A stretch of 64,000 nucleotides of DNA from a virus, in the IMG/VR virus record IMGVR_UViG_3300023174_000078, positions 1 to 64,000 of that record, one strand, 5' to 3'. The translations under genes were made by a program, and so were the position numbers. How positions within the stretch are numbered: the first letter of the stretch is position 1; each line of letters starts with the position of its first letter. Shown piece after piece: positions 20,995 through 51,145 of this stretch. The notes under the pieces are model-generated. The model had not been told where the DNA came from and ran no database searches. It worked only from the letters and a program-made list of their open reading frames with translations.

Positions 20995-21160
20995 ATTGTC
21001 ATCTAGACTGGCTCATCTTGAGAAATTAAAAGATGAGCCGGTTATGGATGATTTTGATTCTGGGCTTCATGCCGCGCGTCACGACGAATACGCATTTTTA
21101 AAAGAGGTTTTGAAAGAACATGGAGAATCCAAAGAAGGACAAGGTAATACCTGTTCCTGA
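20972..21160 (+). CDS. Small hypothetical protein (GTG start)
   Basis: 62 residues, charged and helical. Starts at a GTG that overlaps the end of the previous gene by 23 bases and its own end overlaps the polymerase gene by 41 bases, so it fills the junction between the two. Function unknown. Confidence 0.55.
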   Translation: MNKKLQFKLSSRLAHLEKLKDEPVMDDFDSGLHAARHDEYAFLKEVLKEHGESKEGQGNTCS

Positions 21161-24100
21161 CTATACACTCCCGCCACTCTCTCTAGTCGAGAAGACTGGG
21201 TCTATAATCGGGCACAACGGTGTAACATTTATTGCTGGCGAGGGCATAAAACCTGCCGATATAATGTTTATTTCTTCTTGTGTCTCACCGCAAGAGGCTA
21301 GTAAATTTATTAAAGGAAAATATAATGAGGAGGGTGTTCGCGTGAGGCCTCGTTATCTTCGTTCTGACGCAGGTGTTATGTTTTCTGACATCTTTAATCA
21401 AGAAGGTATAGACTTATACAAGTGTTATTACACAGCTTTAGTAAAATGGTTACTACCTAAAAATGAGCGTATCAAAATCCCAAAGGATGTTATAGCCTGG
21501 GCATTGCCAGCGCTTGAAGCGGAGATACAAAGTGTTAATCCTAAAATTATAGTTTGTATAGGTAAGCCTGTATTTGATTTGCTTACTGAAATTAAACTAT
21601 CTTTGAGCGACGCTAAAAGTGGTTGGTTCTATAATAAAAAATATAATGCTAAATTATATTTAATAGATGACACGTACAAACTTGTTACTAATCCCGAATA
21701 CATCGGAAAGTTCAGGGTTGAGGCAAGGGAGATACACCGTATGCACAGAGAGGTATGCAATCTCGCTACAGATCGGATTCCTCTTGAGTACGAGACGATT
21801 ACTAACTCCGCCGATTTAAAACGTGTAGTCAGTAATTGGAAACAAAATAATTTCAATGTTATAAGCGTTGACTGTGAGTGGGCTGGTAATAACCACATTG
21901 ATGGACAACTTAGAAGTACACAGTTTTGCTGGGCTCCCGGTAAAGCTTGTTATGTCCGTTGGATGGATGACAAAGGTAACTATACTTTTGATACATCGTA
22001 TAAGGAGGCTGGTAGTATTTTATCTTCTTGGTTGGACCGTGAAGAGGTCAAGTATATAGGGCATCACTTTGCGGCTGACGCCCCGTGGCTGCATCATGTG
22101 CTTGGTTTGAATTGGTATGAGAAGTGTATATTCGATACCGAGTTTGCGCAGCAGACAGCGAATGAAGCTGAAGATCTTTCTTTAGAGCGTATAGCTTTGA
22201 AGTATACAGATCTGGGTCGTTATGATTTGGATCTTGTCCTATGGGTTAAACAAAATAAAGCTTTAATGGTTGATGGTGGTTACGGCGCAATACCTGATGA
22301 CATACTTATTCCTTATGCTTGTAAGGACGTAGATACTGTATTTCGTGCGTGGCCGTTTATACATCGCAGCCTGCAAATTCAAGACTTGTTGGATTACTAT
22401 AATAATGTGTTCCATCCTTTTGTGACGGATGTGTTCGTGAGTTTTGCTGTAGTGGGACTTCCGATGGATGTCGCTATGATGGATGAACTGCGAGTATTAT
22501 ACACATTTGCGCGCGACAAAATGGAAGTTGTGCTACGCGAAGATATTCATGTAGAGGCTAAGAATTTTATTTTGATGGCGTTTGCTACAAGACTCCCACC
22601 TGAGCTGGCAGCAAACTCCTATTTAGAATTTATTTCTTTAATAGCTAATTCGGATCATGCGCAGGCTTGGAGTATACTGAAGAGCGCAGCCAAGAAACCC
22701 GATGACGTACCTAAGTTAAAATTTATATTTGATCATTTTATTGATAGCTCGAATTTCAATATTCGGTCTGCGGCACACTTAAAACGTTGGTTGTTTCAGG
22801 TTAAAGGCTATGAGCCTATCAAATCAACCAACAACAAAGATAAGGGCCTGCCTGCAACATCTTGGGAGAAGATTAAAGCCATGCCTTTAGATGTGCAGAA
22901 AAATTATAATCCCGCAGTAGACAAACAGACGTTGCAGATTTTATCCGAACAAAATGACGATAGAATTCTGCGCAAACTTCTACAGCTGAATGCGGTCGGT
23001 AATATATGCAAAGCATTTCTTAAGGAGGCAGATACCGACGATGACGGTAATGTTCTAAAAGAGAACGGTCTTCATTTTTACCTATGCAGTGATAACCGCG
23101 TGCATGGTCAAATGAGCACCACAGAAACCGGACGACCTCGTAGCTGGAAGCCGAACTCCTTGAACTGGCCTAGTTATGTTAACTCTATGATTTCGAGTGG
23201 TATCTCAGATCTGTTTGGTAAACTAAAAGAACGCGACGAGTTACCGGAAGAGTTTGAGAAATTTATAATTAAGGACGATAAGGGAGACTACAAGATTAAG
23301 GTACCTTCTATACGTAGCTGTGTTAAAGCGCCGGATGATTGGTGTTTTGTGGAGTCTGACTACCAGACTGCGGAGATTAGAGGGCTGGCATTCATTTCTG
23401 GAGATAAGAATCTCATAGATATTGTATGCAATCCCGATTTAAATTTTGCAGTCACAAAAGATGACAAAAAAGTTAGACTATCTTTTCCGTCAGAAGTATT
23501 CCCTCCTTCCGCGCAGGAAGAATATAAGTCCCTCCTCATTTCCCCGGATGATCCCTCTTTAATGAGAAAAGAAGACGGTTCATTGAAACACCCAAAGCAG
23601 GACCTTCACTGGTCTCTGGCTGAGATGGTTCATATTAAGCCGAGAGAAGTTCTTGACGATAAAAAAGACCGTGGTGCGGCGAAGGTAGGAAATTTTTCGT
23701 GTATAGCTAAAGACTCCTACTTACACACGCCTTCAGGGCCAAAACTTGTTACTAACATATCACTTGACGACATGTTGTGGGATGGTGTAGAGTGGGTAAG
23801 TCATGAAGGTATACAGTACCAAGGAAATAGATGCACAATCAGATATCAAGGTCTGGCAGCAACCCCAGATCACGTCATCTGGCTTGCTAACGGAAATAAA
23901 TGTTGCTTCGGGGATGCCGCTATCAACGGCTGGAAAATCAAAGAGGAACAAACCCTTCCGATGTGCCGACCCCAGAGCCAAAATGCTAAGAGCCCGTTAT
24001 CACGCAATGATTCAGCGTTGCTACAAAGACACGCACGTATCTTCTGTAAATTACAAAGGCCGGGGAATAGAAGTATTATTCACTTCCCTGGGCGATTTTG

Positions 24101-25520
24101 TACAATGGGCTTTAGACCGGTGGCCGAATACAAACTTCAAAGGTTTGGATTTCGACCGTATAGACAATTCAGGGCATTACTCGAAAGAAAATCTGAGGCT
24201 CGTAACGCGCCTGATGAACTTGAGAAATACAAGAGCATCAAAGTGGTCTTTTCGCACACGCGCCGAAGCCATAATAACTGCTTATCCAGATTTACCAGTA
24301 GCGATGAGGACTATTTGGAATATGCTGCAAATGGGCATAACCGAAAAAGAGATATTCGAGAAAGTAAAGTCCGGAGAAATAAAGAGCCGGAAGGCTATAT
24401 TATCCAACGCGAAAGTATTACGAGCCAGGAAATTAATACAATTGAATCCGAGCCTGGGTGTAGGCGAGAAACAGATAATGAAATTATATCGGAAAGGATT
24501 AACCGATCAGGATATAGTAGCACATGTGGCCAAGCACAAAGAGTTAACTTTGCGTATTCGGAAAGCTATGCAACGCGAAGAGCACGCTTTACAACGTGCC
24601 GCCCGTTTAGGCATAGGCTTTGCAGACAGCACTATAAGGAAAATGATACGCGCGGGATTATCCGACGAACAGCTGATAGCAGCCTGGGAAAAAGCATCTT
24701 TAAAGTTAGAATCAGTCAGGCAGAAGATAGAGAGGCTTGGCTTAAAACTCAGCGCCGCTACTACTCACAGGTTGATGAAGCGGGGAATGTCGGATGTGCA
24801 GTTAGAAGAATATTCGAAGAAAAGGGTTTTAAGCTCACAAAAGAGCCAGTCTATGATATAATAAATGCGGGCCCTAGACGTAGATTTGTAGCTAACGGGT
24901 TGTTGGTTTCAAACTCAGCTTACGGCGCGTCTGCCTCTACGCTGGAGCGTAAAATCGAACAAGACACTGGTAAGAAACCAGAAGAAGGAACCGGGCAACG
25001 GCTACTTAAGGCGCTGGAAAAGCGTCAGCCTGTTGCGCAGGACTTCCTGATTAAAATGGAACGCGTACCTGAGAAGCCTGGATATTACCGCGCAGCCTCT
25101 GGAAGACTTCGTCATTTTTCTTCGCACGATCCTAAATACATCGACGAGATTGACGAGCAGTTGACTATGGGATTGTTCAGGTCTATGGGTAGAGAGGCTC
25201 GTAACTTTCCAATGCAAGAGAGTGTAGCTGCTACTGCCGCGCGAGCGGGCAAGTGGCTGCTGGACGCTTACATAAAGTTAGGTATGCAAGCCAGACCATT
25301 GATTATTTTATATGATTCTGTTGTTACTCTTTGTCCTCTTGAAGAACGCTTTAAGGTTGCGCAGCTGCACCAGCTCTTTATGACGGATGAGAACACCTGG
25401 ACGTACCACGGTCGAACGATGAACTATCCAATTGATCAATTGTTTTGCTACAGATGGTCCGATAAACCATCAAAAGATGAAACTAAACTGCTAGAAGACA
25501 AAACTTACAAAACTAACTGA
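21120..25520 (+). CDS. polA: Family A DNA polymerase with glycosylase-like N-terminus, interrupted by an intein
   Basis: Replicative polymerase. The precursor is 1466 residues; removing the 405-residue intein leaves 1061. Domains in order: a uracil-DNA-glycosylase-like domain (about 20-225; KPADIMFISSCV, ADIFNQEGIDLYKCYYTALV-like, PKIIVCIGKP), as in SPO1-type polymerases; a 3'-5' exonuclease (about 245-420; VISVDCEW, IGHHFAADAPWL, YACKDVDTV); and the polymerase. Motif A is FVESDYQTAEIRG. Motif B reads AAKVGNFS joined to SAYGAS after splicing, so the intein sits in the active-site O helix. Motif C is LIILYDSVVTL, where Asp is kept but the usual HDE is YDS. Until the intein is removed the enzyme cannot work. 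Confidence 0.92.
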   Translation: MENPKKDKVIPVPDYTLPPLSLVEKTGSIIGHNGVTFIAGEGIKPADIMFISSCVSPQEASKFIKGKYNEEGVRVRPRYLRSDAGVMFSDIFNQEGIDLYKCYYTALVKWLLPKNERIKIPKDVIAWALPALEAEIQSVNPKIIVCIGKPVFDLLTEIKLSLSDAKSGWFYNKKYNAKLYLIDDTYKLVTNPEYIGKFRVEAREIHRMHREVCNLATDRIPLEYETITNSADLKRVVSNWKQNNFNVISVDCEWAGNNHIDGQLRSTQFCWAPGKACYVRWMDDKGNYTFDTSYKEAGSILSSWLDREEVKYIGHHFAADAPWLHHVLGLNWYEKCIFDTEFAQQTANEAEDLSLERIALKYTDLGRYDLDLVLWVKQNKALMVDGGYGAIPDDILIPYACKDVDTVFRAWPFIHRSLQIQDLLDYYNNVFHPFVTDVFVSFAVVGLPMDVAMMDELRVLYTFARDKMEVVLREDIHVEAKNFILMAFATRLPPELAANSYLEFISLIANSDHAQAWSILKSAAKKPDDVPKLKFIFDHFIDSSNFNIRSAAHLKRWLFQVKGYEPIKSTNNKDKGLPATSWEKIKAMPLDVQKNYNPAVDKQTLQILSEQNDDRILRKLLQLNAVGNICKAFLKEADTDDDGNVLKENGLHFYLCSDNRVHGQMSTTETGRPRSWKPNSLNWPSYVNSMISSGISDLFGKLKERDELPEEFEKFIIKDDKGDYKIKVPSIRSCVKAPDDWCFVESDYQTAEIRGLAFISGDKNLIDIVCNPDLNFAVTKDDKKVRLSFPSEVFPPSAQEEYKSLLISPDDPSLMRKEDGSLKHPKQDLHWSLAEMVHIKPREVLDDKKDRGAAKVGNFSCIAKDSYLHTPSGPKLVTNISLDDMLWDGVEWVSHEGIQYQGNRCTIRYQGLAATPDHVIWLANGNKCCFGDAAINGWKIKEEQTLPMCRPQSQNAKSPLSRNDSALLQRHARIFCKLQRPGNRSIIHFPGRFCTMGFRPVAEYKLQRFGFRPYRQFRALLERKSEARNAPDELEKYKSIKVVFSHTRRSHNNCLSRFTSSDEDYLEYAANGHNRKRDIRESKVRRNKEPEGYIIQRESITSQEINTIESEPGCRRETDNEIISERINRSGYSSTCGQAQRVNFAYSESYATRRARFTTCRPFRHRLCRQHYKENDTRGIIRRTADSSLGKSIFKVRISQAEDREAWLKTQRRYYSQVDEAGNVGCAVRRIFEEKGFKLTKEPVYDIINAGPRRRFVANGLLVSNSAYGASASTLERKIEQDTGKKPEEGTGQRLLKALEKRQPVAQDFLIKMERVPEKPGYYRAASGRLRHFSSHDPKYIDEIDEQLTMGLFRSMGREARNFPMQESVAATAARAGKWLLDAYIKLGMQARPLIILYDSVVTLCPLEERFKVAQLHQLFMTDENTWTYHGRTMNYPIDQLFCYRWSDKPSKDETKLLEDKTYKTN
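23700..24914 (+). mobile_element. Intein in DNA polymerase motif B
   Basis: 405 codons from Cys1 (CIAKDSYLHTPSGPKLV) to the last Asn (NGLLVSN) before extein Ser. Block A and block B (AATPDHVIWL with TxxH) are clear, as is the C-terminal block (EPVYDIINAG ... RRRFVANGLLVSN). Between about 23983 and 24861 the intein frame shows only Arg-rich sequence of no recognisable fold, because the real coding there is a homing endonuclease in the +1 frame. The splicing halves therefore amount to roughly 95 plus 30-40 residues, which matches a mini-intein in size. Confidence 0.9.
23983..24861 (+). CDS. HNH homing endonuclease overprinted on the polymerase intein (+1 frame)
   Basis: 292 residues from the ATG at 23983. 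The core matches the common phage HNH family: MIQRCYKD, YKGRGIEVLF, FVQWALDRW, GLDFDRIDNSGHYSKENLRL, RLMNLRNTR. Behind it come four helix-turn-helix-like repeats: LQMGITEKEIFEKV, YRKGLTDQDIVAHV, IRAGLSDEQLIAAW, MKRGMSDVQLEEYS. The frame is open upstream to 23803, but residues before 23983 are a shadow of the intein frame. It stops at 24859-24861, just before the intein's C-terminal block. Expected to cut intein-free polymerase genes. How it is translated is not clear: no strong ribosome site precedes 23983, so internal initiation or frameshifting are both possible. Confidence 0.85.
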   Translation: MLRARYHAMIQRCYKDTHVSSVNYKGRGIEVLFTSLGDFVQWALDRWPNTNFKGLDFDRIDNSGHYSKENLRLVTRLMNLRNTRASKWSFRTRAEAIITAYPDLPVAMRTIWNMLQMGITEKEIFEKVKSGEIKSRKAILSNAKVLRARKLIQLNPSLGVGEKQIMKLYRKGLTDQDIVAHVAKHKELTLRIRKAMQREEHALQRAARLGIGFADSTIRKMIRAGLSDEQLIAAWEKASLKLESVRQKIERLGLKLSAATTHRLMKRGMSDVQLEEYSKKRVLSSQKSQSMI

Positions 25521-49681: not shown

Positions 49682-49757
49682 GCACTCGTAGCTCAGTGGA
49701 TAGAGCAGCGGATTTCTAATCCGCTGGTCGTTGGTTCGATCCCAACCGAGTGTGCCA
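49682..49757 (+). tRNA. tRNA-Arg (anticodon TCT)
   Basis: Full cloverleaf: acceptor GCACTCG/CGAGTGT with one G-T pair, D-arm, anticodon stem GCGGA/TCCGC with loop TTTCTAA, T-arm TTGG-GTTCGAT-type, encoded CCA. It reads AGA. Confidence 0.95.
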
Positions 49758-49779
49758 GTTCTTTGATATTACCAATTTC

Positions 49780-49855
49780 GCGCCTGTAGCTCAATGGTTA
49801 GAGCGGAGGACTCATAATCCTTAGGTTCACGGTTCAAGTCCGTGCGGGCGCACCA
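49780..49855 (+). tRNA. tRNA with CAT anticodon (Met or Ile2)
   Basis: Acceptor GCGCCTG/CGGGCGC with a wobble pair, anticodon loop CTCATAA, T-loop TTCAAGT, encoded CCA. Elongator Met and lysidine-modified Ile2 cannot be told apart from sequence alone. Confidence 0.93.
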
Positions 49856-51059: not shown

Positions 51060-51145
51060 GGCCCAGTGATGGAAAGGTAGACATAGCAGACTTAAAATCT
51101 GCTGCTTTAACAAGCGTGCCGGTTCGAATCCGGCCTGGGCTACCA
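51060..51145 (+). tRNA. tRNA-Leu (anticodon TAA)
   Basis: 86 bases. Acceptor GGCCCAG/CTGGGCT, anticodon stem GCAGA/TCTGC with loop CTTAAAA, a long variable arm, T-arm GCCGG-TTCGAAT-CCGGC, encoded CCA. Confidence 0.94.

Follow-up and report, generated by a model that had tools for sequence, protein, structure and literature searches.

How can an endonuclease gene be kept inside an intein when it is read in a different frame from the splicing domain that surrounds it? This question is raised by a DNA polymerase gene in a 64,000-nucleotide stretch (the window) of a 121,276-base record from a virus of bacteria (IMGVR_UViG_3300023174_000078). An earlier note, made from the letters alone, claimed that the polymerase intein has clear splicing blocks at both ends and that the DNA between them encodes an HNH endonuclease in the +1 frame. 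We examined both frames in the window and in its relatives. The features are collected in Table 1.

Table 1. Features of the polymerase gene and its intein, in window coordinates
Feature	Position	Strand	Description and basis
Family A (PolA-type) DNA polymerase precursor	21120..25520	+	1466 aa including the intein; Pfam and PHROGs
Intein	23700..24914	+	405 aa, Cys1 to terminal Asn, then extein Ser; splicing motifs
N-terminal splicing half	23700..23945	+	Cys1, TPDH at 23862-23873; alignments, pLDDT 95-97
Overprinted HNH endonuclease ORF, +1 frame	23803..24861	+	352 aa from ATG 23803, the more likely start; stop TAA 24859-24861
Intein-frame reading of the overlap	23964..24720	+	Arg-rich, unconserved; predicted disordered passenger linker
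HNH core motif LDFDRIDNSGHYSKENLRLVTRLMNLRNTR	24145..24234	+	phrog_3377 and phrog_374 matches; alignment
Four helical repeats, C-terminus of the HNH protein	24301..24825	+	Sequence and model; probable DNA-binding units
C-terminal splicing half (VYDIINAGPRRRFVANGLLVSN)	24837..24914	+	Alignment, AF2, motif check

Two reading frames in a polymerase intein

The polymerase precursor comprises a UDG-like N-terminus, a 3'-5' exonuclease and a polymerase domain (PF03167, PF01612 and PF00476; phrog_17, E 2e-49), and its frame is free of stops throughout. The intein is inserted between KVGNFS and SAYG. As claimed, splicing blocks are present at both ends: the nucleophile Cys1 at 23700, a block B TxxH motif (TPDH), VYDIINAGPRRRF, and LLVSN, whose last Asn ends at 24914 and is followed by the extein Ser. 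Arg replaces the block-F His, which is retained in the relatives L003 and L004, and the penultimate residue is Ser rather than the common His. The penultimate and block-F His are common but not strictly required, and variants are known among active inteins. Because of this Arg and the Ser before the last Asn, splicing of the window intein may be slow. Judged from its clade, splicing is likely.

When the intein frame was modelled with AF2, Hint strands were predicted at approximately residues 1-80 (pLDDT 95-97) and at residues 371-405 (pLDDT 93-96), and most of residues 89-338 scored at roughly 30-45. The top Foldseek matches to this model were inteins (gp41-1, MchDnaB-1 and NpuDnaE). The model thus predicts a Hint fold for the two ends with high confidence. 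The stretch between them had been described as Arg-rich, stop-free and of no known fold in the intein frame. This description was borne out, as the frame is open and searches of it against Pfam, NCBIfam and PHROGs for an in-frame function of the overlap returned no matches.

Searched separately, the +1 frame matches phrog_3377 (E 7.5e-23) and phrog_374 (E 6e-20). When aligned to its relatives, the window copy has intact HNH core residues and lacks a zinc ribbon that the relatives possess. The AF2 model of this frame (mean pLDDT 85) has a beta-beta-alpha core and four helical repeats, with helix pairs at model residues 115-137, 169-215, 222-259 and 265-298; the relative placement of these parts is uncertain because the pTM is low (0.37). 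The four C-terminal repeats had already been reported in the earlier note and are visible in both the sequence and the model; a search for DNA-level direct repeats behind them gave none that were useful. Comparison of the HNH sequence with solved structures gave no matches. The HNH nickase 4h9d was considered as a structural relative and set aside, its Foldseek match being weak (E 2.4).

Elsewhere in the window, a thymidylate synthase gene (1308-2978; PF00303, E 7e-99) carries an in-frame interruption of ~250 residues whose sequence resembles that of HNH endonucleases and has an I-HmuI/NUMOD-like end (PF22083, 1e-4). Inspection by eye showed no intein motif in this insert, and Rfam no group I intron; from the sequence, an endonuclease appears to have been inserted in frame into an essential enzyme. 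The window also has three phage-encoded tRNA genes, at 49682-49852 and 51060-51142.

The out-of-frame layout is conserved among relatives

Relatives were searched for with the N-terminal splicing block. This gave at least 315 in IMG/VR, from which the best 80 were taken, and 51 in bacterial genomes, which are presumably mostly prophages. In 138 of the ~150 loci fetched, which comprise these relatives and the phage loci named below, the intein frame runs without a stop as far as the C-terminal block and an HNH-family sequence lies out of frame (67 in +1 and 71 in +2). These counts are not of independent events, because they come from one search motif and one clade and include near-duplicates. 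Within the total of 138, three entries are repeat fetches of contigs already counted and some are decayed copies; on a strict count, a substantial HNH is present in 126 loci. The census also contains fourteen short inteins without an HNH, and the short inteins of the clade align solely to the two intein ends. Among the ~150 loci, no intact intein with the HNH in frame was found: in L158 the HNH is nominally in frame, but the intein frame is broken.

Independent contigs with HNH identities of 87%, 72% and about 30% preserve the layout intact, as do complete phage genomes from different laboratories. L004, from IMG/VR, is 75% identical to the window over the intein frame and 87% identical in the HNH. 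In both L004 and L003 (complete), the two frames are open as they are in the window. The HNH is in +1 in Streptococcus Javan113, Gardnerella AB1, APSE-1, Caulobacter RW and Shewanella SFCi1, and in +2 in Sodalis SO-1, Shigella EP23, Salmonella LP31, Vibrio 97.13, EBPR siphovirus 2 and Pseudomonas MR14.

These comparisons bear on whether the layout is an artefact. The window is a single metagenomic record, assembly frameshifts occur, and L158 shows that a broken frame can be present in the census. The earlier note had accordingly named a pair of compensating frameshifts, near 23980 and 24860, as the finding that would overturn it; such frameshifts, whether from sequencing, from assembly or recent and real, would have displaced an endonuclease that is otherwise in frame. 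When we examined this explanation it failed. The layout is found at every divergence, in independent contigs and complete genomes, always with both frames open; codon choice is adapted to the overlap; and the frame label requires one change on a tree of 122 rows. Since the layout is conserved across the census, we reject displacement by frameshifts, to which we give practically no chance of being correct. Because it is kept in well over a hundred viral and prophage relatives, the out-of-frame layout is real and long-lived and is not a sequencing error.

The two frames of the overlap are under different kinds of selection

To obtain expected numbers of stops, synonymous codons were permuted within each HNH gene, so that the protein and its codon usage were held exactly. 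For the window, 13.6 stops were expected in the intein frame and none was seen (P<5e-5), which upholds the claim that a stop-free stretch of this kind would be rare by chance; the third frame has 42. Sixteen further genes also have no intein-frame stops, against 1.7 to 22 expected, the weakest case being Vibrio 97.13 (P 0.1). In free-standing HNH genes, the other two frames contain 9-39 and 13-55 stops.

The openness of the intein frame is visible in codon choice. In the +1 geometry, an intein stop arises when an HNH codon xxT precedes AA, AG or GA. Before these dinucleotides, +1 HNH codons end in T in no case and in C in 185, compared to a T:C ratio of 401:354 elsewhere (Fisher 2e-52); this effect is absent from the +2 cases (117:144 vs 244:312). 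In +2, ATG followed by A is an unavoidable intein stop, and Met-[IMTNK] accounts for 0 of 24 Met, compared to 22 of 63 in +1. The zero counts in these contrasts are a logical consequence of the open frame, and the informative part is the expected numbers.

Comparing the window to L004, changes that are silent in the HNH occurred at 0.092 per opportunity when they alter an intein residue and at 0.007 when they create an intein stop; changes altering both proteins occurred at 0.019. The constraint ratio is 0.20 for the HNH and 1.1 for amino acids in the intein frame. These substitution rates indicate that the HNH is under purifying selection and suggest that, in the overlap, the intein frame is selected almost only to stay open; a weak intein-frame constraint could be missed, because the contrasted changes sit at different HNH codon positions. 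The earlier note had suggested selection on both frames and proposed looking for dual-frame constraint in relatives. Selection was found on both, in a refined form: the HNH is constrained for its amino acids, and the intein frame is constrained almost solely to avoid stops, with no amino-acid constraint detected.

If the HNH were instead a dead passenger, the open intein frame would be all that is maintained. Such a history could account for the repeated loss or truncation of the HNH and for the missing zinc ribbon in the window copy. It is at odds with the intact core residues and with purifying selection in the window's own lineage, and we consider it very unlikely.

Conserved Hint motifs argue for protein splicing over an intron

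HNH proteins are frequent in phage introns, and a GenBank note on SO-1 invokes an intron. The element could thus be a group I intron that is removed without protein splicing. However, the Hint motifs are conserved: Cys1 is present in 149 of 149 loci, Asn is the last residue in 148 of 149, preceding Cys or Ser, and the terminal pair is HN in 137 of 149. The frame is also maintained without stops, for which an intron would have no need, and AF2 predicts a Hint fold. An Rfam search for the catalytic RNA core of a group I intron gave zero matches even at E 1. Lacking a match to an RNA family, the intron was rejected, and we regard it as extremely improbable. An intein remains the preferred reading.

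Translation of the HNH frame

The HNH frame may begin inside the N-terminal codons of the intein. One +1 subgroup has a strong Shine-Dalgarno sequence, formed by the intein K-E-V codons (for example AAGGAGGTAATCGAGTATG), ahead of an ATG at intein nt 145. Across 38 loci, the mean energy of this site is -9.7, compared to -6.8 after synonymous recoding, and in 30 of the 38 it is better than its own null. In +2, the ATG is at intein nt 92 (51 of 69) within E-W codons, and the Shine-Dalgarno is no better than the null. In the window, the candidate ribosome site is weak and likewise no better than the synonymous-recoding null. A Shine-Dalgarno sequence as a general rule was therefore rejected, being supported in the one +1 subgroup only.

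The earlier note placed the HNH gene at 23983-24861. The frame and the end at 24861 were correct; the start at 23983, which would give 292 residues, is probably not the one used. The open stretch reaches back to 23800, and the ATG of L003 lines up with that at 23803 despite different intein residues in L003 (HE to YD). Because a start conserved in two relatives aligns with ATG 23803, the predicted product is more likely the 352-residue protein than the 292-residue one.

Programmed frameshifts are used by phages, and the window has no convincing ribosome site. Ribosomes might then reach the HNH frame not by internal initiation but by shifting from the intein frame, which would fuse the N-terminal intein part to the HNH. 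Against this, the strong Shine-Dalgarno and ATG at nt 145 beat synonymous recoding in the +1 subgroup, the start matching 23803 is kept in L003 despite changed intein residues, and the +1 and +2 layouts would require opposite shifts. We judge frameshifting unlikely and favor internal initiation.

Empty alleles and repeated loss of the nuclease

Intein-free alleles are present in IMG/VR. In L162 and L164, the polymerase reads contiguously as GNFSSAYG at the insertion site, and these intein-free polymerases show 98% protein identity over the matched 166 residues. Copies that have lost the nuclease are also present: in L023, L155, L076 and L133 a stop breaks the HNH frame and the intein frame is open, and at some other loci the HNH is deleted with the intein frame still open. 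On a splicing-domain tree of 122 rows, which rests on only 106 columns and in which many forks are open, the +1/+2 label needs one change and the HNH-less group needs ~16. Together, the tree and the broken HNH copies fit an old overlap with repeated nuclease loss.

The data directly show two conserved frames under opposing kinds of selection, together with empty alleles and many HNH losses. The explanation that we strongly favor is a mobile intein whose endonuclease lies outside the intein polypeptide, through a two-frame reading of the polymerase mRNA; here we infer splicing, HNH translation, the cleavage site and homing. In the polymerase frame, ribosomes would cross the entire insert, and the intein ends would fold into a self-excising Hint domain. 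Between these ends, ~270 residues would form a disordered loop whose sequence is immaterial as long as it is stop-free. In the other frame, an independent HNH endonuclease would be translated from a start inside the N-terminal intein codons; it would cut intein-free polymerase alleles, and repair would copy the intein in.

Other nucleases share the out-of-frame layout

The layout is also present with other nuclease families. An HNH_3 nuclease lies in +1 in the second intein of L003 and in the related L160 (PF13392, 4e-10 and 3e-11), and in L161 (2631-4037; 63% GC) a 469-aa DUF559 (Vsr-like) nuclease is in +1 of a phage PolA intein (PF04480, 1e-9). The HNH_3 and DUF559 inteins have zero intein-frame stops, compared to 8.5 to 10.7 expected. 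The first intein of L003 has an ordinary in-frame LAGLIDADG nuclease (PF03161). Therefore, both architectures occur in one polymerase.

Relation to known systems

A phage methylase with an out-of-frame HNH and no splicing domain was published in 2025 (PMC11855218). As in the window, the HNH is in a shifted frame, the host-gene frame is open, and a patchy distribution is read as homing. The methylase has no intein motifs or fold and its insertion is thought to be retained in the protein, whereas in the window a complete Hint domain surrounds the endonuclease. The window thus shares the out-of-frame HNH and open host frame of a ShiLan-type insertion and differs from it in having a splicing domain. 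For overlapping frames, the methylase study cites Gosselin et al. 2025 (bioRxiv 10.1101/2025.01.02.630785, 'Non-Canonical Architecture') and Gorbalenya 1998.

PI-SceI and PI-MtuI resemble the window intein in having a Hint domain, an endonuclease stretch between the splicing halves and an insertion in a polymerase active-site motif. Their endonuclease is an in-frame domain of one polypeptide, whereas that of the window is encoded in another frame as a protein of its own. HNH-bearing group I introns, such as those in T7-like phage polymerase genes, also have a separately translated endonuclease ORF inside a self-removing element; unlike these, the window element would be removed at the protein level, and its host frame has to remain free of stops. 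Split inteins in fractured genes, reportedly described by Dassa et al. in 2009, are said to have a free-standing endonuclease between the halves. As in the window, their endonuclease is separate from the splicing domain, and it is of the DUF559/EDxHD type also found in L161; in contrast, the window intein is unsplit and both products are on the same DNA.

APSE-1 P45/P46 and Sodalis phage SO-1 gp38/gp39 belong to the same intein clade and have the same layout. In GenBank, APSE-1 P46 and SO-1 gp39 are already annotated as ORFs inside polymerase genes, with the intein unnamed. The SO-1 polymerase (L011, 2094-5282) is annotated as having a type I self-splicing intron; its sequence reads as an intein.

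The earlier note knew of no described class with this layout. For inteins this holds in the literature that we searched, where no intein with an out-of-frame endonuclease was found described; it does not hold more broadly, given the published methylase. A 2025 preprint by Gosselin et al. reportedly concerns non-canonical actinobacteriophage inteins and may overlap with the present layout.

Implications for inteins and overlapping genes

On balance, we lean toward the view that there is a widespread intein class of old origin, represented by at least three endonuclease families, in which one frame of a shared DNA stretch encodes splicing and another encodes mobility. In such a class, selection would maintain a stop-free intein and a functional endonuclease, each could be tuned or lost separately, and the choice of frame would be fixed over deep divergence. 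If true, bifunctional and split inteins would be joined by a third architecture. In the textbook intein a single protein performs both functions; here overlapping genes would divide them, and a homing endonuclease could invade or persist in an intein without fusion to it. Nonsense mutations could kill the nuclease with the polymerase unharmed, whereas the polymerase would not survive an indel in the nuclease. The copies L023, L155, L076 and L133 would be natural controls for splicing without the nuclease.

Long overlapping genes on the same strand occur naturally at these loci and bear a recognizable signature: C and not T before AA, AG or GA, and no ATG before A. This signature could be used to find further cases dropped by annotation pipelines, and inteins listed as having large endonuclease-free inserts warrant re-reading in their other frames.
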